The translations under genes and the position numbers were made by a program. This document shows positions 3,016 through 44,715 of a DNA stretch of 44,715 bases, piece after piece (position 1 is the first letter of the stretch; each line of letters opens with the position of its first letter). The notes under the pieces are model-generated. The model did not search any database. It was not told the DNA's origin and saw only the letters and a list, made by a program, of their open reading frames with translations. The DNA comes from a virus, in IMG/VR virus record IMGVR_UViG_3300030060_005751, positions 1-44,715 of that record; one strand, written 5' to 3'.

Positions 3016-3636
3016 TTAAACTTTTTTCAATTTGTTTTTTAACTGTACAATATAACCATCTATTTTTTTAGCATCACTATCATCATCCGACATTTTTTCT
3101 CTTCTGATTATTAACTTACCTAATGCTTTTTGTATTTGTAATTTAGACAACCCTTTCATCGACCTTCTGTAATATAAATGTTGTAGTGCTTCATCTTCTG
3201 CTTCTGCTCCACGAACACCAGCAACTGCTGTTATATATTCTGTCTCGTATACTTCTGCGTCTGCTACACTTTCGATTTCTTTCCAAACAGTATTATCCCA
3301 CATAGCATCTAAATCTAAATTATCTACCTCTGCTAATGCTTCTTGTGTATCGATACTATCTTGTTTTGCCTTTTCTATCTGTTGTTTTTTTCTACGAACT
3401 GCAAACTCTGCATCGTAGTATGTAGTTGATATAGAATCACACTCACTTAACCATGAACCATAATTTTTCCAATTAGGTCTACCATTAGAATTTCTATATT
3501 CTGTATCATCACATTCTGTACCCATAAAGGTAGATGTTTTAAACCTAGATACTCTGATTGTATCTTGACTATAACTTAATTGGAAGCTCAGACAAAATAA
3601 AATTAGTGGAATCATATGTGAAATACCAAATCTCAT
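3016..3636 (-). CDS. Secreted protein of unknown function, pilin-cluster member
   Basis: 206 residues. The N-terminus is a Sec signal peptide with a hydrophobic core at residues 9-22 and an S-Y-S-Q-D junction around 21-25, typical of FCB-group exported proteins. The mature part is acidic and helical with coiled-coil potential (residues 75-105 and 160-206) and two cysteines. An alternative start is Met 8. The gene overlaps the end of the pilin-like gene upstream by 68 nt and is the last gene of the pilin cluster, so it may work in the periplasm with the pilins, for example as a chaperone or tip factor (inference). I recognise no family. Confidence 0.75.
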   Translation of the reverse strand: MRFGISHMIPLILFCLSFQLSYSQDTIRVSRFKTSTFMGTECDDTEYRNSNGRPNWKNYGSWLSECDSISTTYYDAEFAVRRKKQQIEKAKQDSIDTQEALAEVDNLDLDAMWDNTVWKEIESVADAEVYETEYITAVAGVRGAEAEDEALQHLYYRRSMKGLSKLQIQKALGKLIIRREKMSDDDSDAKKIDGYIVQLKNKLKKV

Positions 3637-3964
3637 TATTCATTCTCCTGTGATATAGTTTAGTTCCATCAAATTGCCATTCATTATCTTCATCAGGTAT
3701 TCCTAATGGTAAAGTAATAATGACACCTCTTGTACGACCTAAAACAGAAAGTGGATTAGATGGCCAACTTTCTATTCCTGTTAATTCTAATTGTTCTTTA
3801 GCGTGTAATTCTAATTCTTTCCATATCTGATAAGTAAATTTCTTTTCAGATTTTAATTCTTCTAATTCAATTCTTTCTGCATATCTTGGTAAAGCTATAG
3901 CACTTAATATACCAATAACAAGAATAACTACAACTAATTCAATCATAGTATATCCTTTGCTCAT
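3569..3964 (-). CDS. Type IV pilin/pseudopilin-like protein
   Basis: 131 residues. A class III (prepilin) signal is clear: short leader MSKG, then YTMIELVVV with Glu at mature position 5, and a hydrophobic helix to about residue 25 ending L-P-R-Y. The C-terminal domain shares S-W-P-S-N-P and E-W-x-F-x...H-R-R-x-N-N with the gene at 4422-4853, so the two are paralogues. Family knowledge: such proteins are cleaved by a prepilin peptidase after Gly and assembled into type IV pili or type II secretion pseudopili. No peptidase, ATPase or platform gene is visible here, so host machinery would be needed. It starts by TAATG coupling to the upstream pilin. Confidence 0.88.
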   Translation of the reverse strand: MSKGYTMIELVVVILVIGILSAIALPRYAERIELEELKSEKKFTYQIWKELELHAKEQLELTGIESWPSNPLSVLGRTRGVIITLPLGIPDEDNEWQFDGTKLYHRRMNNEIWYFTYDSTNFILSELPIKL

Positions 3965-4410
3965 TAAATTTCTCCGATTATGTATTCCTCATACGATGGG
4001 CTATCTTCATCCACATCACTAATAATAAATAGTTTAGTTATATATCCTTGAGATGAAGTATCGGATGTTATCTCATATTCAAATGGATTATTATTAGAAT
4101 TAAATGGTAAGTCACCGCTAAATAAATGATTAGGTGTTCTACCATCAGATAAAATTATATCACGATAATCTTCATCTAATAAATTGTTTTCTGGCTCAGT
4201 AGGAAGTTGTGGATTACCTTTTATATGAGTCTCTTGATAATATCTCAAAAAAGTATCTCTAATAATTGACATATTAGCAAGATTGATTTGTCTTTGAGTA
4301 TCCATCGTTAAATTACTAAAAGTGGGAATAGCAAAAGACATCACTATTCCCACCAAAGCAATACTAACTACTAACTCTGCCAATGTGAAACCATCAGTTG
4401 AGTTTCTCAT
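3964..4410 (-). CDS. Type IV pilin/pseudopilin-like protein
   Basis: 148 residues. Prepilin leader MRNSTDG is followed by FTLAELVVS with Glu at mature position 5 and a transmembrane-type helix to about residue 32 (A-I-P-T-F). The globular part differs from the two W-P-containing paralogues. It has a helix with Q-R-Q-I-N-L-A-N-M, an acidic middle and a C-terminal strand-rich segment ending Y-I-I-G-E-I, the layout of a minor pilin. It lies between other pilin genes in one direction with an 11-nt gap upstream and TAATG overlap downstream, which supports one operon and joint assembly. Confidence 0.87.
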   Translation of the reverse strand: MRNSTDGFTLAELVVSIALVGIVMSFAIPTFSNLTMDTQRQINLANMSIIRDTFLRYYQETHIKGNPQLPTEPENNLLDEDYRDIILSDGRTPNHLFSGDLPFNSNNNPFEYEITSDTSSQGYITKLFIISDVDEDSPSYEEYIIGEI

Positions 4411-4421
4411 TGGTATCTCCC

Positions 4422-4853
4422 TTAGTCTACGATAGCTTCTCTAGCACCAATTGAACCAACAACAGCATTATCGCCTGATTGAACACCTTTGTCGTATGCC
4501 CAAGCATAACGAGTGTTATCTTTTCGTTGGTGTGTGATTTTGTTGGTTGTGGTGTTGAATGTCCACTCACCATCGGTATCAGCATTATCAACATCTGTTG
4601 AATCGTATCCTACTGGTACTTGGTCTAAAGCATCAAAAGGATGGGTTGGCCAACTCTTTCTACCATTATCAAGAAGTTGTTCAACAGCGTAGTTTTCAAG
4701 ACCAGCTTTCACAGATGCCATTATAGCATCTTCTGCTGCTTGTTCTGCTTTGTCTACCACACCGACATATCTTGGTATGGCTACAGCTGCAAGAATTCCT
4801 AAAATGATAGTAACCATTATTAGTTCTATTAATGTGAATCCTTTGTTGTTCAT
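4422..4853 (-). CDS. Type IV pilin/type II secretion major-pseudopilin-like protein
   Basis: 143 residues. The prepilin signal is textbook: MNNKG|FTLIELIMV with Glu 5, then the helix with I-L-G-I-L-A-A-V-A-I-P-R-Y. The head domain has S-W-P-T-H-P, an acidic loop with D-V-D-N-A-D-T-D-G-E-W, and H-Q-R-K-D-N-T-R-Y-A-W. The acidic loop could be a Ca-binding loop as in GspG-type pseudopilins (inference). It is paralogous to 3569-3964. This is the most canonical pilin in the cluster and a likely major subunit. Confidence 0.9.
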   Translation of the reverse strand: MNNKGFTLIELIMVTIILGILAAVAIPRYVGVVDKAEQAAEDAIMASVKAGLENYAVEQLLDNGRKSWPTHPFDALDQVPVGYDSTDVDNADTDGEWTFNTTTNKITHQRKDNTRYAWAYDKGVQSGDNAVVGSIGAREAIVD

Positions 4854-4883
4854 TGTATTCTCCGCTCGATTTCGAGTCTGATT

Positions 4884-5519
4884 TTAAGGTTGTAGTTTTT
4901 TGTTGAAGTTTAATGGACTTTCCAAGTCTGCAATATACAGAATAGGAGAGTAAGATTGTTGTCCACTTCCACCACCAGCAACTACTGTGTAGATGTAGTG
5001 ACCATCCTGGAAAGGACTCTTAATGGCGTTTCCACCAAACTCGTTTAGGAACTCTTCAGCACCAACTGATACATCAAATGAACCATCTCCATTATCATCT
5101 TCTGATGTACTTAATTGATTACCACTAGGAGCTGGCGATTCAACATTAACTGTTCCAAATACGGAAGCCCAATTACCTGCTTCACTACTTTCATATGTTT
5201 CGAATTCATCTAAACTTGTAAGTAGTGCGTCTTCGTTAGCATATCCACCAGCATCAGGTACAGATTCATTGTACTTTACTTGTCCTGGAAACCGACCACG
5301 ACCTTCATCAGTTACTCTAGCGTTATAGAAGTTATTAGCTGATTTCATTATCTTATCGATATCAGCAAGTGTTTTCTTTTCCTTAGCACCTTCTCCAACA
5401 CCGGAAAATTTAGGTGCAGCAGTAGTAGCAAGTGTAGCCATCATAGCAGTTGTTACTGCAAATTCAGCGAGTGACTGACCACTACGGCCTTTTAGTTTTT
5501 TTCTTAGTGATTTGAACAT
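4884..5519 (-). CDS. Atypical pilin-like protein (Q-S-L-A-E-F type)
   Basis: 211 residues. A basic leader MFKSLRKKLKGRSG is followed by QSLAEFAVTTAMM, giving a prepilin-like cleavage site after Gly with Glu at mature position 5. The helix is Ala/Thr-rich (T-T-A-A-P-K-F) and less hydrophobic than in the other three. The mature domain is acidic, with a D-D-N-G-D-G-S-F-D segment near 140-149 that looks like a Ca-binding loop, and a Gly-rich C-terminal part. It is first in the pilin operon, with a strong AAGGAGA ribosome site. It could be a Flp/Tad-like or divergent type IV pilin. Confidence 0.8.
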   Translation of the reverse strand: MFKSLRKKLKGRSGQSLAEFAVTTAMMATLATTAAPKFSGVGEGAKEKKTLADIDKIMKSANNFYNARVTDEGRGRFPGQVKYNESVPDAGGYANEDALLTSLDEFETYESSEAGNWASVFGTVNVESPAPSGNQLSTSEDDNGDGSFDVSVGAEEFLNEFGGNAIKSPFQDGHYIYTVVAGGGSGQQSYSPILYIADLESPLNFNKKLQP

Positions 5520-5701: not shown

Positions 5702-5968
5702 TCAATAAATTACAAATGGTAATTTTGCTGTAACAAATTCCCAAATAATCATTCCTACAAATGTAAATAAACCACCCAACATTGTTGCTAAAGCATCTTT
5801 ATTACTCCATCCACTTGTTGCATAATAAACATCATATAGTTCTTTACCAAATGAAACTATTAACATTACTATCCATGATTCGGTAATTCCATATACTGCT
5901 GCACCACCCATAAAGTGTAGGAACTTATCTGTTCCCCATTGTAACATAAAATCATTAAATTTACTCAT
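5702..5968 (-). CDS. Small integral membrane protein (D-K-x-x-H-F family-like)
   Basis: 88 residues with two to three hydrophobic segments (about 22-40, 55-75). The pattern D-K-F-L-H-F-x-G-G near residue 14, G-K-E-L-Y-D-V-Y near 41 and a later N-K-D-A-L-A-T-M-L-G-G resembles the DUF2279/YfiM and VanZ-like membrane families, whose His, Glu/Asp and Asp residues lie at similar places. The function in phage is unknown. It is the last gene of the envelope operon; the start overlaps the lipoprotein stop as TAATG. Compare the gene at 8975, a similar membrane protein. Confidence 0.78.
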   Translation of the reverse strand: MSKFNDFMLQWGTDKFLHFMGGAAVYGITESWIVMLIVSFGKELYDVYYATSGWSNKDALATMLGGLFTFVGMIIWEFVTAKLPFVIY

Positions 5969-6537
5969 TAATATACTCCTTGATAAAATGTAGCTTCTGG
6001 ATCTGTACCCACTTCTAAGTTTTGAAAAATAATTATACCATGTTGCATTATGTCAGCATATGGATTATAAAAATAACCATCCACCATACCATCTACCTTA
6101 CCATCCTCGTACTTAGTAACTGCACCTTGTCCAAATTCTGTGTAATCGGATAGACCTACAATTTCTAGTGTTACTCTACCACTTGTAGTTTCTAATAATG
6201 ATGGATCAGCTTCTGTACCACCTATGTATATCTTCTCATCTATAAGTTGTCCATTGTCTGCTCCATTATTATCATACATAATCAAAGCATAATGTTCTTT
6301 TTCAGGTGAGACTCTACCAAACTCTTTTTGAAAGTGAACCACAAATATCTTTTTTATAGAACCATCTTCTTGTACTGTAGATGCTCCATATGTAGTTACA
6401 CTTTCATAATATTCACGAGGTACAATTTCTGAACCATTAACATACATTTGAATGTTTTCTTCTAACGGTTCTTCTACTCTGTCATCTTCACAACTAAGTG
6501 AAAATAATAAAAAAGAAAGTAAAAGTAGTTTTTTCAT
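5968..6537 (-). CDS. Lipoprotein of unknown function
   Basis: 189 residues. The signal peptide ends in a lipobox L-F-S-L-S-C with the lipid cysteine at residue 16, followed by E-D-D, which resembles the acidic export signal of surface lipoproteins in Bacteroidota-type hosts. The mature domain is acidic and beta-rich (strand-turn patterns with many Tyr/Gly). I recognise no family. It probably sits on the outer membrane, facing either side. Operon member between a thioredoxin-fold protein (9-nt gap) and a membrane protein (TAATG overlap). Confidence 0.8.
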   Translation of the reverse strand: MKKLLLLSFLLFSLSCEDDRVEEPLEENIQMYVNGSEIVPREYYESVTTYGASTVQEDGSIKKIFVVHFQKEFGRVSPEKEHYALIMYDNNGADNGQLIDEKIYIGGTEADPSLLETTSGRVTLEIVGLSDYTEFGQGAVTKYEDGKVDGMVDGYFYNPYADIMQHGIIIFQNLEVGTDPEATFYQGVY

Positions 6538-7653: not shown

Positions 7654-8949
7654 CTAGTTTAAGAATTGATAATTAAGACCAAATTTAATATCATATGCTG
7701 GTCTTTCCCAATAATACAGATAACGACCTTCGGTAAAGACACCTAAGTTCTCTTTTATTTTTACACCTAAGATAGCACCAATATCATAATCATTCCAATC
7801 GTGCCACATTGGATCCATATACATAAAATCACTTGCTTCACCACCCTCTTCTAAATGAGTTTGATAATGAGCAGCATTATGATAGGCATGTTTTGAATGA
7901 CCATAGTGATAAGGTAGCCAATTACCCCAAGCGTGTAACCACCATTTTTCATCATAGTGATACCAATCAACACCTAAAACTAAAGATGTTTCACTTTGAT
8001 ATCCTAAATCTTTTTTAACACCACCTATGTAATTTTCTAACATTTTTGGAAAGTGGTAAATAAAATATTCTCTATCTGTATAAGCAAATATTCTACCTTC
8101 TTCATCTCTCCACAACCAATCGTGTCCCCAATACTCTCCACCTTCATTCCAAAAAGGACCAGAACCCTCTACCTCTCTGATTTCACCTGTTTCAGGATCA
8201 ACCTCGTATAGTGTTCTCTTCTTCCAACCAGTGGGTGAGTTCGGGTCAATCATAGTTGAGTCATACCACATATTATCATCTATACCAAAAGCATCTTCAG
8301 CAAAGTTCCACCATTGACCTTTATACCAAGTAGTATCTAATACCATAGCATCAAATCCATACACAGGATGTTGTCTGTGTTTTAGACCAACAGAGAAATG
8401 TAGTTTGTTTCCTAATGCTTCTGGTGTTAGATGTAATCTAATGTCACCTTGTCCATAAGCAATATCTTCAAGACCTAACTCAGTCCATCCAACTTTTGCC
8501 ATAACAAAGTCACCAATATATCTCAACCAATATTCTTGGTTTAAATATTCGTTACCCCATTGTCTACCTTCTGAAAATTTTATTAAGTATTCCCAACCCT
8601 TTACAGGACCAAATGTAGCACTTTCATTTGCGTTCTGTTCTGAACCATCATACCAAACACCACCTTTTCCCGCAGACTTTACACCTCTTTTAGCTTCGTA
8701 CTGAAATCTACCAATCTTACGAAGTCCAAATGAGGTTTGGAAATCAGGTTTTAATTCTCTTTCAGTTCGTTCTACTTGCAACACACCAGTTGATAGACCA
8801 CCAACAATGGCAAATCTATCGTCTTGATAGCGAGGAGCATTTAAACTAAAACTTGAATAAGCTGTGGAATACTTAAAAAAGTTAGTAAAAAAGTTCTGAC
8901 TAAACAAAGATGAGGATAGCAGTATCCCTAATATAATTTTCTTTAACAT
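7654..8949 (-). CDS. Predicted outer-membrane beta-barrel protein
   Basis: 431 residues from the chosen start; a longer reading to 9018 adds 23 residues that would bury the signal peptide. The ATG at 8949 has a GGGAG ribosome site and gives MLKKIILGILLSSSLFSQ, a Sec signal with S-Q junction. The mature protein is rich in Tyr, Trp, Gly and alternating aromatic strands and ends in Y-Q-F-L-N, consistent with a C-terminal barrel strand. A His/Trp-rich segment (residues about 325-395) has clusters such as H-S-K-H-A-Y-H-N-A-A-H that could bind metal. The family is not recognised. Possible roles are porin, receptor masking or uptake; this is inference. Confidence 0.72.
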   Translation of the reverse strand: MLKKIILGILLSSSLFSQNFFTNFFKYSTAYSSFSLNAPRYQDDRFAIVGGLSTGVLQVERTERELKPDFQTSFGLRKIGRFQYEAKRGVKSAGKGGVWYDGSEQNANESATFGPVKGWEYLIKFSEGRQWGNEYLNQEYWLRYIGDFVMAKVGWTELGLEDIAYGQGDIRLHLTPEALGNKLHFSVGLKHRQHPVYGFDAMVLDTTWYKGQWWNFAEDAFGIDDNMWYDSTMIDPNSPTGWKKRTLYEVDPETGEIREVEGSGPFWNEGGEYWGHDWLWRDEEGRIFAYTDREYFIYHFPKMLENYIGGVKKDLGYQSETSLVLGVDWYHYDEKWWLHAWGNWLPYHYGHSKHAYHNAAHYQTHLEEGGEASDFMYMDPMWHDWNDYDIGAILGVKIKENLGVFTEGRYLYYWERPAYDIKFGLNYQFLN

Positions 8950-8974
8950 CTGTTTTCTCCCAATAGTTTTTAAT

Positions 8975-9268
8975 TTACCATACCATCCAAGCTGCAGCTG
9001 CTGTTTCAACAAAAACATCTGCCGCTGTATTATATGCCCATTTCTTTTTTGTTCCGTAGGTTTCTTCTGTTCCCTCTACGAATACTTCAAAAATTTCCCA
9101 AGCTATACCTATAATTAATACCCAAAGTACAGCCCACAAATCAGTAGCACCTAACCATTGTGCTACTTTAGCAATAAACAAACCAGCCGCTAAATGATAT
9201 GATGTCCATCCATCTAACTGACCACTTGATACTTGCCAACTATATAATTTTGCTAAAGGATTGTCCAT
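8975..9268 (-). CDS. Small integral membrane protein, VanZ-like layout
   Basis: 97 residues with hydrophobic segments at about 25-40, 44-60 and 83-97. S-Y-H-L-A-A-G near residue 24, A-W-E-I-F-E-V-F near 55 and N-T-A-A-D near 80 repeat the His...Glu...Asp layout of VanZ/DUF2279-type proteins and of the gene at 5702. No function is known. Good ribosome site (GGAG) before the ATG; 25-nt gap to the barrel gene downstream. Confidence 0.75.
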   Translation of the reverse strand: MDNPLAKLYSWQVSSGQLDGWTSYHLAAGLFIAKVAQWLGATDLWAVLWVLIIGIAWEIFEVFVEGTEETYGTKKKWAYNTAADVFVETAAAAWMVW

Positions 9269-32208: not shown

Positions 32209-32862
32209 TTATTTTTGAGAACTTGAAACTAAATTGTTAGAAACTTGTTCACTTAAAAGTGATTGTATTGTGAAATATAAAGAGGGATTTCGTTTCAACA
32301 AATCCTTAAAATCTTTTTGTGGCCAGACTAAACATTCCGTAGTGTGTGCAACTTTACAAGTAGCAGTAGCTGGTTTCTCTGTAAGAAAAGACATCTCTCC
32401 TACAAACTGACCATCTTTTAGTTCAGCTACTTTATTATCATTAACTAAAATATCAACCATGCCATTGTAAATTAAAATTAAATCATTGACAGGTTTACCT
32501 TGTTGAATAATTGGTAAAGGTGATTTGAATTTTTTCCATTGAGCAATTTTAGTAATCTTTAGAAACTCTACTGGTGATAAACCACGAAACATAGTTTCGT
32601 ATAATTCTTTTTCTTTAGAAGACATCTTAACAGGTCTCTTTTCGTAAATGATAACTGCTATGTGATAGATATTAACTAAAATAAATATGATGTTCCAATT
32701 TATCGCTAACCACATAGGTTCTACTGGTATGTAAAAATTATAAAGAACAGAGAACAAACTAGCTAGTATAGATAGTATTCTAAGATACAGTATATCCTTT
32801 ACCAAAAAAGAAAAGGCAATAAGACCAAAGGCTAAGTGTCCAGCTAAAGTTGCTATATTCAT
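32209..32862 (-). CDS. Popeye-like membrane protein with cyclic-nucleotide-binding fold
   Basis: 217 residues. Three hydrophobic helices fill residues about 5-75, followed by a cNMP-binding fold at about 95-210: P-I-I-Q-Q-G-K-P-V-N-D-L-I-L-I-Y-N-G, D-G-Q-F-V-G-E-M-S-F-L-T at 150-161 and P-A-T-A-T at 164-168. The order (three-helix membrane part, then cNMP fold) matches Popeye-domain proteins and some bacterial relatives. The phosphate-binding Arg usual in the P-R-A-A-T motif is absent, so ligand binding may differ or be lost. The gene overlaps the transglycosylase stop by 4 nt. It may sense or sequester a second messenger at the membrane. Confidence 0.75.
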   Translation of the reverse strand: MNIATLAGHLAFGLIAFSFLVKDILYLRILSILASLFSVLYNFYIPVEPMWLAINWNIIFILVNIYHIAVIIYEKRPVKMSSKEKELYETMFRGLSPVEFLKITKIAQWKKFKSPLPIIQQGKPVNDLILIYNGMVDILVNDNKVAELKDGQFVGEMSFLTEKPATATCKVAHTTECLVWPQKDFKDLLKRNPSLYFTIQSLLSEQVSNNLVSSSQK

Positions 32863-33434
32863 TTTAGATTCTTTTGAACTCTCTTTACATAAAAGTTATT
32901 ACTAATATAATTATTAGAATATTTTTTTGTGACGGTAGGACCGTGACTATATGCAGTAAGTGTTGATTCTAAATCATCGAAGTGTTCGTTAAGTTGAGAT
33001 AGATATTTTATGCCGACAGTAACATTTACATACGGATCAAACAAGTCTTGTTTAGGTGTTTGAAACTCGGACATAGCCGTTGATGGTAATATCTGCATTA
33101 AACCAATCGCTCCACTTGTGGAAACGGCTTTATAATTCCAATCGGATTCAGTTTGTATAACGGCTTTAACCATTTCATAATCAACCCCATACTCCCAACA
33201 GAGAGCCTCTATATAAATAAGTATGTGTTTAAGTTTAGATTTATTCAAAGAAGATTTAATCTCCTCTGCCTGTAATTCGTAGTCACTTGGAGCAAACGGT
33301 ACATTAACCATACGAACAACTGTTTCGGTTTTTGTTTGTATTGGTATATCAGGTTCTATTATCTCTACATAAACCATAACAGACACAGCAGTTGTTAATA
33401 CACCTAATAGGTAATATAGTTTATTTACTGACAT
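32859..33434 (-). CDS. Membrane-anchored lytic transglycosylase (SLT type)
   Basis: 191 residues. One N-terminal membrane anchor (about 6-26), a periplasmic linker, then an SLT domain at about 75-185: V-K-A-V-I-Q-T-E-S-D-W with catalytic Glu 96, A-V-S-T-S-G-A-I-G-L-M-Q-I-L-P-S-T-A, and G-I-K-Y-L...L-T-A-Y-S-H-G-P. These enzymes cleave the glycan MurNAc-GlcNAc bond of peptidoglycan. It may help lysis or tail-like complex assembly through the wall; the anchor suggests action from the inner membrane of the infected cell. It has an AAAGGA ribosome site behind a TATATTTATT element. Confidence 0.88.
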   Translation of the reverse strand: MSVNKLYYLLGVLTTAVSVMVYVEIIEPDIPIQTKTETVVRMVNVPFAPSDYELQAEEIKSSLNKSKLKHILIYIEALCWEYGVDYEMVKAVIQTESDWNYKAVSTSGAIGLMQILPSTAMSEFQTPKQDLFDPYVNVTVGIKYLSQLNEHFDDLESTLTAYSHGPTVTKKYSNNYISNNFYVKRVQKNLK

Positions 33435-36067: not shown

Positions 36068-36082
36068 TTGATTACCTCGTTG

Positions 36083-36153
36083 AGTCGTGGGTGAGAATCG
36101 AACTCACTTAGACGGGTTTGCAATCCGTTGCCTAACCATTCGGCCACCACGAC
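36083..36153 (-). tRNA. tRNA-Cys (GCA)
   Basis: On the minus strand the acceptor arms GTCGTGG and CCACGAC pair fully, the D arm is GCCGAATGGTTAGGC, the anticodon loop TTGCAAA holds GCA, and the T arm is GTGAG-TTCGATT-CTCAC. No CCA is encoded. The anticodon stem has one A-C mismatch. Confidence 0.93.
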
Positions 36154-36160
36154 ATTTAAG

Positions 36161-36233
36161 TGGAGCTGACTGGACTCGAACCAGCGACTTCCTCCGTGCA
36201 AGGGAGGCGTTCTCCCAACTGAACTACAGCCCC
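36161..36233 (-). tRNA. tRNA-Ala (TGC)
   Basis: Acceptor GGGGCTG pairs with CAGCTCC, anticodon stem CCTCC/GGAGG encloses CTTGCAC with anticodon TGC, and the T arm contains GGTTCGAGTCC. No encoded CCA. Separated from tRNA-Cys by 7 nt and co-oriented. Confidence 0.95.
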
Positions 36234-38344: not shown

Positions 38345-38355
38345 GTAAAGATAAA

Positions 38356-38387
38356 AAGGGATGGCATACCTACTTGTGCCATCCCTT
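38356..38387. terminator. Terminator between convergent genes
   Basis: AAGGGATGGCA / TGCCATCCCTT is a perfect 11-bp stem with a 10-nt loop. On the minus strand it is followed by TTTTT, ending the TonB-domain gene. It also lies 12 nt after the plus-strand gene, so it can serve both directions. Confidence 0.85.
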
Positions 38388-38399
38388 CGGTTATAAACT

Positions 38400-38732
38400 T
38401 TATTTAAATAATATAGGTAACTTATATCTCACTCTAACAGGTCTTCCATTTTGTAACGCTGGTTTAAATTCTAAACACATTACTTTATCGATTATCGTCT
38501 CGTTTAACTTAAAATTAAAAGTATCTACTATATTGGGTTCTATAACTTTACCTTCTGTATCTACTGTAAACTCTACTAATACATTACCAACAAAAGACAT
38601 TGTATCTATATGCTGAACATCATAGTAACTAAGATTAAAAGGTTTCTTTACTTTGGGGTGTCGACTCTTACCTATCGGTAAGTCTTGGGCTATCAACGAG
38701 CCCATGAGTAACATACTCATCAGGACTCTCAT
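38400..38732 (-). CDS. Secreted TonB C-terminal-domain protein
   Basis: 110 residues. A signal peptide ends S-L-I-A-Q-D at about 17. Residues 45-110 match a TonB C-terminal domain: G-N-V-L-V-E-F-T-V-D-T-E-G-K-V-I-E-P, I-D-K-V-M-C-L-E-F-K-P-A-L-Q-N-G-R-P-V-R-V-R-Y and ending L-P-I-L-F-K. There is no proline-rich spanning region and no cytoplasmic anchor, so it cannot carry energy from ExbBD. Free in the periplasm it might compete with host TonB for TonB-boxes of outer-membrane receptors (inference), or form a barrier to other phages. AGGAG ribosome site. Confidence 0.82.
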   Translation of the reverse strand: MRVLMSMLLMGSLIAQDLPIGKSRHPKVKKPFNLSYYDVQHIDTMSFVGNVLVEFTVDTEGKVIEPNIVDTFNFKLNETIIDKVMCLEFKPALQNGRPVRVRYKLPILFK

Positions 38733-38822
38733 GGTTCTTCTCCTACTTATGAGGGTTATTAACTATCGCTTCTATAAGTAAATATAAAAGATATTAAAAT
38801 AATATGTCGCCAGACATATAAA

Positions 38823-38844
38823 AAAAAGCGCTATAGGTAAAAAA
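38823..38844. repeat. 22-bp direct repeat, left copy
   Basis: AAAAAGCGCTATAGGTAAAA plus AA; 21 of 22 positions match the copy at 39189-39210. An inverted copy of TATAGGTAAAA occurs at 38888-38898. The pair brackets the plus-strand gene at 38945. Confidence 0.85.
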
Positions 38845-38944
38845 ATACTCCCAAAATTTTTTTGTATAGGGTGTTAGTAAAAAAACATTTTACCTATACC
38901 ACATTTTATGATTAGATTTAGGTATCAAAGATAAGGAAAAAACA

Positions 38945-39190
38945 ATGAAGTTATACAAATCATCAAGACAAACAAACCTATTTCCTCAAGGTATTAAGAA
39001 ACAAAAATGGAATAGGGGGAATCCACTAACAAAGAAAGATAAGTTATATAGAATATCTACTTACAATAATATAAGAAGTAATGGTGGTACTTTAAGAGAT
39101 GTGGCCATAGCGTGGGGTATGTCACCAAATAGTTGTGGTACAGTACATTACAAAGTTTGGGATTATAAAGAAGAGTTAGGAATAAAATAA
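38945..39190 (+). CDS. Small basic protein, possible HTH, flanked by repeats
   Basis: 81 residues, plus strand, AAGGAA ribosome site. The N-terminal half is basic (S-S-R-Q-T-N-L-F-P-Q). The C-terminal G-G-T-L-R-D-V-A-I-A-W-G-M-S-P-N-S-C-G-T-V-H-Y-K-V-W has the rhythm of a helix-turn-helix (A-x-x-W-G-M-S-x-x-S). It may bind the flanking repeats as a regulator, or be the protein of a small mobile unit. No known family recognised. Confidence 0.68.
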   Translation: MKLYKSSRQTNLFPQGIKKQKWNRGNPLTKKDKLYRISTYNNIRSNGGTLRDVAIAWGMSPNSCGTVHYKVWDYKEELGIK

Positions 39191-39210
39191 AAAGCGCTAT
39201 GGGTAAAAAA
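39189..39210. repeat. 22-bp direct repeat, right copy
   Basis: AAAAAGCGCTATGGGTAAAA plus AA, one mismatch to the left copy at 38823, beginning in the stop codon of the plus-strand gene. Confidence 0.85.
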
Positions 39211-39241
39211 GCAACCTCGGGATCCATACGACCTTAGCCGG

Positions 39242-39420
39242 GCTAAAGTATTACTTTAGCGTTTTGGAAAACCAAATGAAGATTAGGTATAGGAGGGGGG
39301 TACAGCAATAGGGCTGGTCAAAGGAGATTGAAACCCAGCCCTACGCCGTTTAAATGTGAGCCACCCACCTCGGAGGCCTTTTAACTCATGTCAGACACAA
39401 GAACCTCGGAGGTAGGGTGG
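39242..39420. ncRNA. GC-rich structured non-coding segment, three hairpins
   Basis: Three hairpins in series in an otherwise AT-rich genome: GCTAAAGTA/TACTTTAGC (39242-39260); TAGGGCTGG/CCAGCCCTA (39309-39343), whose loop holds AAAGGAG; and a 16-bp arm pair starting CCACCC and ending GGGTGG (39361-39420) with one bulge and one mismatch. No open frame fits. Strand is uncertain: downstream of the plus gene or 3' tail of the ATPase transcript. Confidence 0.5.
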
Positions 39421-39427
39421 ATATCTT

Positions 39428-39739
39428 TTAGTTGTTGTCCTCTATCTCGTGGTCGGTGAATAACTCTTCGTCACTACCATCAGACACGAACTTCTGTACT
39501 ATCTGTTTGACAAAGGTACGTTCACTATCCACACCACCTGTCGGGTCATACTGAGGGTAGATGGTGATGTCAGCAGCTTCCATTAGACTAAATCCATCGA
39601 AGAGTAACCCAGCAATCTCTACTGAGGTTCTTGTTGATACTCCACTCGTTATACGAGGGTTATCGGTTTGAGCCTCTGTACGAGTTAGATGGGTAATGGA
39701 CGATAAGCTCTTCTTCGTCATTAAGTAAGTCCATCTCAA
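39428..39739 (-). CDS. CobS/MoxR-like ATPase, C-terminal lid part (after frameshift)
   Basis: Only the part from about 39700 down is likely translated as ATPase sequence: T-H-L-T-R-T-E...I-T-S-G-V-S-T-R-T-S-V-E-I-A-G-L-L-F-D-G-F-S-L-M-E-A-A-D is the expected C-terminal lid of MoxR/CobS ATPases, including the sensor-2-type S-T-R motif. It continues the ATPase in the +1 frame relative to the upstream part, so the two together make one protein of about 370 residues. Whether by programmed frameshift, mutation or sequencing error cannot be decided here. Confidence 0.75.
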   Translation of the reverse strand: MRWTYLMTKKSLSSITHLTRTEAQTDNPRITSGVSTRTSVEIAGLLFDGFSLMEAADITIYPQYDPTGGVDSERTFVKQIVQKFVSDGSDEELFTDHEIEDNN

Positions 39740-40541
39740 TGACAGTAAATCTATCCATAAGAGCCTTATCTAGCTGACGAGTCGCTGTGTATTCATTACC
39801 TATATTAGCAGTCGCAATAAAGGTAACTCCATCAGCCACTTTAATGGTATCTTGACCATCTGCTTCGTCCAACCTTAAGTATCTCTGACCTTGGTCGAGA
39901 ACCGTCATTAAGATGTTCCAAGCATCAGGATGAGCCCTTGTTAACTCGTCTAAGAGGATAACAGCATTCTCTGTCTGAATAGCCTTGACAAAGAGAGACT
40001 CAGAAAAGAAAGTACCTTTCTTCTTGTCGAAATGAACATTACCGATTAGAGATGCTCTCGGGTCTTGAGTAGCACCCAAGTTGAAGTAAAAGTCAGGTCT
40101 GTCAAGGGCATTGACAAGTGATTTAGCCGCCATAGTCTTACCACAACCGGCTTGACCTGTCATCATGATATTCTTACCTCTGACGGCTGACCTAATAAGG
40201 TACTTCCACTTCAACTCTTTCATAACGAGCCCTTGTGGTTTTAAACCATAGGAATTAGAAATAAAATCTACGATAGCCTCATGACCATCAGGTATCTCTA
40301 CATCGGAAGGGGCTTCAGGTACATGGGATACTACACCAAATTGTTCCATTGGTACTTTCCACCAATAGATACGACCATTCTTGCCCTCTCGACATTCAAG
40401 AGCCATACCAGCGTTATACGCTTTTTTCCTCGTGCCAGTCCTTATAGCAGAGGTATATTTTTTACCATCACTATCGACAGCGTTATATCGATTACCCGAT
40501 TTAACGACTTGAACGACAGTTCCAACAGTTGGTTTATTCAT
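39660..40541 (-). CDS. CobS/MoxR-like AAA+ ATPase, N-terminal part (frameshifted)
   Basis: 293 codons. The N-terminal about 70 residues form a small basic domain. AAA+ core: Walker A GQAGCGKT at 129-136, Walker B V-I-L-L-D-E at 194-199, sensor-1 A-T-A-N-I-G with Asn 246, and arginine finger D-R-F at 263-265. Homology ends near E-E-E-L (residue 279); the last residues V-H-Y-P-S-N-S-Y-R-G are out of frame with the family, and the lid lies in the next frame. In marine T4-like phages CobS-like ATPases pair with a CobT-like VWA protein, as seen at 43469. Probably remodels or loads a protein target by ATP hydrolysis. Confidence 0.85.
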   Translation of the reverse strand: MNKPTVGTVVQVVKSGNRYNAVDSDGKKYTSAIRTGTRKKAYNAGMALECREGKNGRIYWWKVPMEQFGVVSHVPEAPSDVEIPDGHEAIVDFISNSYGLKPQGLVMKELKWKYLIRSAVRGKNIMMTGQAGCGKTMAAKSLVNALDRPDFYFNLGATQDPRASLIGNVHFDKKKGTFFSESLFVKAIQTENAVILLDELTRAHPDAWNILMTVLDQGQRYLRLDEADGQDTIKVADGVTFIATANIGNEYTATRQLDKALMDRFTVIEMDLLNDEEELIVHYPSNSYRGSNR

Positions 40542-43468: not shown

Positions 43469-44715
43469 TTACTTCTGAAGGAACTTGTCATTCATTGTTT
43501 TGGCAACATTCATCATGTTAGTACAATCGATGAAACTCGCATCCTTACCATACATTCTTTTGAAAGTATTTTCATCATTTTCACTTCTGTAACCCTCAGA
43601 GATAAAGTAACTCATGATTTTGATTCCATTATTCTTCATCATTTTTACCATTCTTCTGGTGTGGTCAATAGCTCTGTCACCAGCATAATAAACATCATGA
43701 CTAGCGTATCTTCTACCACCAGTAGAGAACCAAGGCGCTCCATCTGAATAGTTGATGAAATAGTTATCTTCACCATTTGAACCTTGTAACCACTTCTTCA
43801 TAATGGCTTCGTAACATAGTGACTCAGGAGTAACTCCACCAGGCTGAAGAGCCTTCCAAAGAGTTTTGATTTTAGTCAACTTATCTTTCTTACTGTTGTA
43901 AATAATCACAACAATCGGCTTATCTTTGTTAGTCCATCTAACATCAACAGTAACTTGAATGTTTCCAGCCATATCAGCAGCTTTACACATCGCAACAGCA
44001 GACTTAATGGCTTTCTCAAACTTTCCACCACTCATAGAACCAGAACCATCAATTGACAAGTGTAAGTTAGCTTTATTGTATCTTTCTTTCTGAATCTGTG
44101 AAAAGACATTCTCATTACCAAAACCTAACTCAGAGATTAATCTCTTATTGATTTTACCTGTGTTTTGTCTCGTGAAAATCAAATCTTTCTCTTCACCACG
44201 AATCTTAAGTTTTCTACCGAGAATAGCACCGAGTCTGAAACCTTCGTTGATTGCCTCAACCATTTGAACACCACCACTCCAATTGTATCTACCATCGTAA
44301 TAAGAGTCATCAAGAGAACGAAAGAAAGGAAAGGCACCACTCTCAATAAGTTCTTTAGTTAGTGAAGGAATCACAACAGTTCCAACTTTACCAATTCTAC
44401 CATCACCAACCTCGACCAACTCTGTATTTGAGTTTGATAGAGCATTGACAATCTCTGAATCTTTTTTGGTCAAAGTAGATTTTGGAGTTTGACCATCCAA
44501 GAACTCTTTTTGTTTATCAAACATATTCTGAATTTGTTTCTGTTGTTGTGGAGTCAACTCATCACCGTTTGACTTTGTAGGAGCTCCATCATCAGGAGTC
44601 ATCTGAGCATCACCAGTGTCAACCTCAGTTCCATCTCCATCAGAACTACCTTCAGACTCTTTATTTTCACCACTCTCGGTATTTTCGTTGTTACCTTGAC
44701 TATTACCCTCTTCAG
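43469..44715 (-). CDS. CobT-like VWA-domain protein (5' end beyond window)
   Basis: The frame stays open to the right edge, so the N-terminus is missing. An internal ATG at 44602 lies after an acidic Asn/Glu/Ser/Gly-rich linker, the typical CobT linker, so it is probably not the start. Counted from that ATG, the VWA domain at about 178-290 has the MIDAS D-G-S-G-S (185-189), Thr 258 in G-G-V-T-P-E and D-G-A-P-W at 287. CobT-type VWA proteins work with a CobS-type AAA+ ATPase; that partner lies at 39428-40541. In the family the pair inserts metal or remodels a partner protein; the phage target is unknown. Confidence 0.85.
   Translation of the reverse strand, partial: EEGNSQGNNENTESGENKESEGSSDGDGTEVDTGDAQMTPDDGAPTKSNGDELTPQQQKQIQNMFDKQKEFLDGQTPKSTLTKKDSEIVNALSNSNTELVEVGDGRIGKVGTVVIPSLTKELIESGAFPFFRSLDDSYYDGRYNWSGGVQMVEAINEGFRLGAILGRKLKIRGEEKDLIFTRQNTGKINKRLISELGFGNENVFSQIQKERYNKANLHLSIDGSGSMSGGKFEKAIKSAVAMCKAADMAGNIQVTVDVRWTNKDKPIVVIIYNSKKDKLTKIKTLWKALQPGGVTPESLCYEAIMKKWLQGSNGEDNYFINYSDGAPWFSTGGRRYASHDVYYAGDRAIDHTRRMVKMMKNNGIKIMSYFISEGYRSENDENTFKRMYGKDASFIDCTNMMNVAKTMNDKFLQK

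Follow-up and report, generated by a model that had tools for sequence, protein, structure and literature searches.

Phages and bacteriocins commonly enter through TonB-dependent receptors, which are also the main route of iron and vitamins. T5 Llp, an outer-membrane lipoprotein, is a receptor-inactivating exclusion protein unrelated in sequence to the phage protein described here. Competition of a free TonB C-terminal domain (CTD) with anchored TonB was reportedly described for E. coli by Howard et al. in 2001. The Cor protein of phages phi80 and N15 is a phage exclusion protein that inactivates the TonB-dependent receptor FhuA (PMC11436027). The open-access literature searched yielded nothing specific on phage-encoded TonB or TonB-dependent receptors, and no paper describing phage-borne pseudopilins or a phage-borne receptor.

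We have analysed a stretch of 44,715 nucleotides, IMG/VR record IMGVR_UViG_3300030060_005751 (G000; hereafter the window). A preliminary description held that it contains a phage-encoded gene for a signal peptide plus TonB CTD without the anchor and spanning region. The phage origin is corroborated by the record itself, a virus record with T4-like baseplate genes gp6 and gp25 and a late-sigma-like gene. The gene and its immediate flanks are as follows.

38400..38732, minus strand: free TonB C-terminal-domain protein of 110 aa (Pfam TonB_C, 32-record family, structural model, dN/dS)
38733..38800, minus strand: upstream region containing ATATTTACTTAT, an AT-rich element also seen in close relatives, and the AGGAG ribosome-binding site; putative promoter of its own
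38353..38390, minus strand: hairpin with a U-run, likely an intrinsic terminator just downstream of the gene (RNA fold -19 kcal/mol, z -3.4)

The open reading frame begins with ATG, preceded by AGGAG 9-13 nt upstream, and its translated product is MRVLMSMLLMGSLIAQDLPIGKSRHPKVKKPFNLSYYDVQHIDTMSFVGNVLVEFTVDTEGKVIEPNIVDTFNFKLNETIIDKVMCLEFKPALQNGRPVRVRYKLPILFK. Residues 1-15 are signal-peptide-like, residues 16-31 form a linker and residues 32-110 constitute the TonB-CTD. The Pfam TonB_C model matches residues 48-110 (3.7e-9; 37.3 bits against a cut-off of 24.6). The NCBIfam model tonB_Cterm (TIGR01352) scores the protein at 24.1 bits, under its cut-off of 27.1, and a free CTD from the likely host phylum at 38.7 bits. 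The N-terminus, MRVLMSMLLMGSLIA followed by Q, carries a hydrophobic block of 14-16 residues, whereas the block in anchored TonB of the likely host phylum spans 23. No membrane anchor such as that of a full TonB transducer is seen, the block being short and ending in a conserved Ala; across the family alignment, Ala is nearly invariant at the presumed cleavage site, where we infer that the signal segment would be removed. Between signal segment and domain there are about 10-20 residues, with 1-5 Pro in residues 17-48, so there is no Pro-rich periplasm-spanning region. Anchor and spacer are missing from every aligned family member. The Pfam match, the short N-terminal block and the fold together bear out the architecture claimed in the preliminary description, with cleavage as a prediction, and the protein is a free TonB-CTD that probably resides in the periplasm.

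The fold was addressed with an AlphaFold model of the mature protein built on 44 aligned relatives (pLDDT 86.2, pTM 0.75), for which an earlier fold from nine close relatives (pLDDT 59) was discarded. After Foldseek and VIA-align, the best eleven VIA-align matches are all TonB-family CTDs, with Z of 7.9-10.5. The top match is FoxA-bound P. aeruginosa TonB (6i97_D; Z 10.5, rmsd 2.2 over 85), and others are FusB 7zc8 (Z 9.4), BtuB:TonB 2gsk_B (Z 9.4) and E. coli TonB 1u07 (Z 9.2); TolA domains rank below TonB CTDs, at Z 6.5 or less. Structure prediction, the check put forward at the outset against a fold unlike that of TonB, thus returned a TonB-CTD fold nearest to receptor-bound TonB. Searching the PDB with the single sequence placed TonB2 first, at E 0.07 only, while the family profile retrieved only TonB-family chains, down to E 3.3e-9. 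No match was found among the viral structures of BFVD, absence from which proves little. The conserved TonB 'YP' motif has lost its Pro, the phage family having Y-x-D where solved TonBs have YP, and the receptor contacts of the phage protein may therefore differ.

Relatives of the protein, sharing 46-89% identity with it across all or most of their sequence, are encoded on 30 IMG/VR contigs and on one contig assigned to the MAG bacterium TMED198. The latter contig is phage DNA binned with the MAG, as it bears several genes of the phage group. Including the window, the family comprises 32 records of one T4-like marine phage group, and all 31 relatives share the architecture of signal segment and TonB-CTD. 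All 18 of 18 records tested lie above the Pfam TonB_C cut-off, with one match per record. Among close relatives dN/dS is 0.14-0.32, the signal segment being mostly looser than the mature part; the family is under purifying selection, which together with the conserved architecture rules out chance and decay. Strong conservation of the C-terminal strand was left out of the evidence because the search patterns had selected for that strand. The protein has no PADLOC match and no PHROG of known function. TonB_C matches in human-gut 'phage' sequences were set aside; one of them, MT836022, belongs to a long protein of several domains that resembles a host BlaR1/M56 sensor.

Upstream of the gene, sigma-70-like matches are no more frequent than chance and the T4-late TATAAATA is absent, and an AT-rich motif learned from relatives fails to discriminate the gene starts of the window. 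Downstream, the hairpin has a loop of 10, which exceeds the loop limit of the terminator scan and explains why it is missing from the scan list. Beyond it lies a convergent gene for a small membrane protein; the hairpin and this convergent gene make the TonB-CTD gene look monocistronic in the window.

The surrounding DNA has several features of its own. A strand-switch region at 38820-39400 contains repeated 'gcgctatrggtaaaaaa' motifs and a non-coding stretch, has no Rfam match, and encloses a small winged-helix-like ORF at 38945-39190. A MoxR-like AAA ATPase follows at 39428-40541, divided between overlapping frames of 293 and 103 aa; its counterpart in relatives is a single gene of 379-395 aa, and the split is a frameshift or an assembly error. 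A von Willebrand-type partner of this ATPase may sit at 43469-44602. On the other side, a membrane protein at 32209-32862, with a C-terminal stretch reading like a cyclic-nucleotide-binding domain, adjoins a lytic transglycosylase (SLT) gene at 32859-33434, and adjacent tRNA-Cys and tRNA-Ala genes occupy 36082-36233 on the minus strand.

A cassette of pseudopilin-like and secreted proteins occupies 3.0-9.0 kb of the window, 30 kb away from the TonB-CTD gene.

3016..3636, minus strand: secreted protein fam 2, signal peptide ..SYSQ; no Pfam match; in several relatives its gene is immediately next to that of the TonB-CTD
3569..3964, minus strand: pseudopilin-like protein (N_methyl; Pfam PF07963, 2e-5)
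3964..4410, minus strand: pseudopilin-like protein (N_methyl; Pfam PF07963, 5.1e-6), 38% identical to a pilin of a cellular secretion/pilus operon
4422..4853, minus strand: major pseudopilin-like protein with a GspG-type N-terminus (PF07963, 1.8e-7; partial GspG match below cut-off), 60% identical to a host pilin
4884..5519, minus strand: pilin-like protein (..GQSLAEFAVTTAMMATLATTAAPKF..); proteins encoded in pilus/type II secretion operons of cells from the likely host phylum are 62-66% identical to it
5968..6537, minus strand: lipoprotein with an ..LFSLSC lipobox, in the pilin cassette; order conserved in G001, G012 and L068
6547..6921, minus strand: secreted thioredoxin-like protein of the pilin cassette (Pfam Thioredoxin 0.001, below cut-off)
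7654..9018, minus strand: secreted, possibly outer-membrane protein of the pilin cassette, signal peptide ..SLFSQ; no family match; conserved in G001, G012 and L068

The four consecutive pilin-like genes at 3569-5519 are ordered like the pilins of type II secretion/pilus operons in cells of the likely host phylum. Cellular operons with homologues of the 4884-5519 pilin are found in genomes of the TMED198 phylum, and the better-preserved among them hold prepilin peptidase, GspE-like and GspF-like genes together with pilins in an order matching the phage cassette. Four relatives (L066:10336-10671, L007, L067 and L069) have, at the end of the TonB-CTD gene, a small lipoprotein gene that overlaps it or comes shortly after, which suggests translational coupling.

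The linkage to pseudopilins brings in a different role, that of an adaptor in a phage pseudopilus or secretion module, in which the CTD would tether some periplasmic or outer-membrane component encoded by the pilin cassette and receptors would not be the main target. The TonB-CTD gene adjoins the fam 2 gene directly in 8 records and is one gene away in 2 more, and in at least 6 of those 10 the pseudopilin genes are contiguous with the pair. Pilins are present in 6 of the 7 contigs of at least 44 kb (the window and the L059, G015, G016, L063 and L068 records), the seventh, G001, ending inside the module, at its edge; the phage pilins also agree with those of host pilus/type II secretion operons in both type and order. 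However, a long distance separates the TonB-CTD gene from the pilins in the window, G016, L063 and others, with an apparent terminator of its own in the window, and neither a secretin nor GspE, GspF or other motor genes were seen in the phage pilin cassette. We also know of no pilus system that uses a TonB-CTD adaptor, and count this against the adaptor, which we regard as unlikely while giving it appreciable weight.

Two relatives carry a complete TonB-dependent receptor (CarboxypepD-reg plus Plug, 918-929 aa) about 8 kb from the TonB-CTD gene.

L218:3138-5894 (G015): phage-borne receptor
L219:2268-5057 (G263): phage-borne receptor; this second carrier is also given as the L068 record

Both genes are located downstream of ribonucleotide reductase, among other phage replication genes, and the receptor shares 67-68% identity from end to end with those of the likely host phylum, where homologues occur in 171 of 245 genomes. 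The CTD might be the partner of a receptor supplied by the phage, altering nutrient uptake during infection, a reading for which these two relatives speak. Yet no Plug domain was found in 17 other records, among them G016 (73 kb) and G262 (96 kb), all of which keep the TonB-CTD, and a free CTD alone cannot transmit proton-motive force; we consider such a partnership very improbable. No ExbD was detected in 19 phage records either, a soft absence given that many are fragments, and on this result the phage would have no motor of its own to energise the TonB-CTD.

The host-like pilin (62-66%) and the host-like phage-borne receptor (67-68%) point to the TMED198 phylum, which we take to be possibly Marinimicrobia/SAR406, as the likely host. 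TonB_C is present in 144 of 149 genomes of this phylum; with receptor homologues also widespread there, a Ton system is present to act on. When the phage-family profile was run against these genomes, the best of a class of short secreted TonB-CTD proteins of 112-142 aa outscored almost all full-length TonBs, the top cellular matches lying in open frames of 117-142 aa. In a tree the 32 phage proteins form one group (81/90), beside the cellular free CTDs and apart from full-length TonBs (95/91), a placement that lends support and is no proof, resting on about 97 columns with long branches meeting. The cellular anchorless CTDs are the closest cellular relatives, and the free TonB-CTD is therefore no phage invention; by sequence, the phage gene looks like a captured host gene from an existing cellular class.

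Such kinship raises the question of whether the phage CTD simply acts as the cellular free CTDs do, for instance as a local regulator or docking subunit of particular receptors, and thus serves as an auxiliary gene supporting host physiology. The profile scores and the position of the phage group in the tree speak for this, and a model of the myxobacterial receptor MxcH has a similar N-terminal domain, so receptor-partnered anchorless CTDs may exist. On the other hand, the gene neighbours of the cellular free CTDs vary, the tree is short in columns and long in branches, and the YP region of the phage lineage is divergent; we think this role rather unlikely.

The reading we prefer, somewhat short of an even chance in our judgement, is that the secreted, unanchored TonB-CTD competes with host TonB at receptors, within a set of genes that remodels the envelope. 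It draws on the TonB_C match, a model nearest to TonB in receptor complexes, the lack of anchor and spacer, purifying selection, the failure to find ExbD in 19 phage records and the Ton system of the likely host phylum, with Howard et al. and Cor as precedents. A free CTD would have been captured by the phage from the host's class of anchorless TonB-CTD proteins, and during infection it would be made and exported to the periplasm. There it would occupy the TonB-boxes of host outer-membrane receptors with no link to the ExbBD motor, and would compete with the host's anchored TonB, so that TonB-dependent transport would be damped or redirected. The logic of this step is that a CTD without an anchor cannot itself transmit proton-motive force and, if its TonB-box affinity is kept, would compete with anchored TonB. 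Host receptors would be the target, given that the available DNA of most relatives encodes no receptor. TonB-box binding, competition and any payoff are all predictions. The main doubts come from the change in the YP motif and from the pseudopilin linkage, both of which are reasons to entertain the adaptor; the receptor carried by some relatives also counts against competition, because it would be strange to supply a receptor and block TonB-boxes at once.

One possible payoff of competition would be the blocking of rival phages or bacteriocins. Superinfection exclusion, put forward in the preliminary description, is by our analysis one option among several, and we doubt that it is the right one: the cellular free-CTD class, the pilin cassette and the receptor in relatives make general remodelling of the envelope and the Ton system at least as likely. 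The TonB-CTD would then belong to a group of phage genes for altering the outer envelope, together with pseudopilins, lipoproteins and, in some relatives, a receptor. More broadly, and quite tentatively, marine T4-like phages may carry a coordinated, host-derived set (a competing free CTD, four pseudopilins, lipoproteins and in some cases a receptor) that rewires Ton uptake and pilus/type II secretion of an uncultured phylum during infection. If the preferred reading is true, phages act upon the Ton system from within the periplasm by means of a protein that mimics its motor arm. A natural, selected, anchorless phage TonB-CTD would also be a ready-made inhibitor and a probe of the grip of TonB on its receptors. 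The combination of TonB-CTD, phage-borne pseudopilins and receptor suggests that marine phages regularly target machines of the outer envelope.

In sequence family and fold the phage protein is like TonB itself (PF03544; E. coli 2GSK/2GRX, P. aeruginosa 6I97), but it has neither the membrane anchor nor the Pro-rich spacer and its YP motif is altered; it would not couple to ExbBD in the usual way. The cellular CTD-only proteins of the TMED198 phylum (L125, L127, L129 and L130) share with it a comparable size, a signal-like start, TonB_C and a ..VKYKLPV.F end; in contrast to the phage gene they are chromosomal, mostly keep YP and have neighbours other than pilins, at about 30-37% identity. The 'TonB-like protein' WMC01252.1 of inovirus D_HF35_23 is likewise phage-encoded and has a TonB_C domain, but it is 168 aa long, with an N-terminal segment resembling a membrane anchor and a long linker, and it is encoded by a filamentous phage next to Zot. 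With Cor, the phage TonB-CTD would share the disabling of receptors from the periplasmic or outer-membrane side; the two are unrelated in sequence, and the phage TonB-CTD would act as a mimic of TonB.
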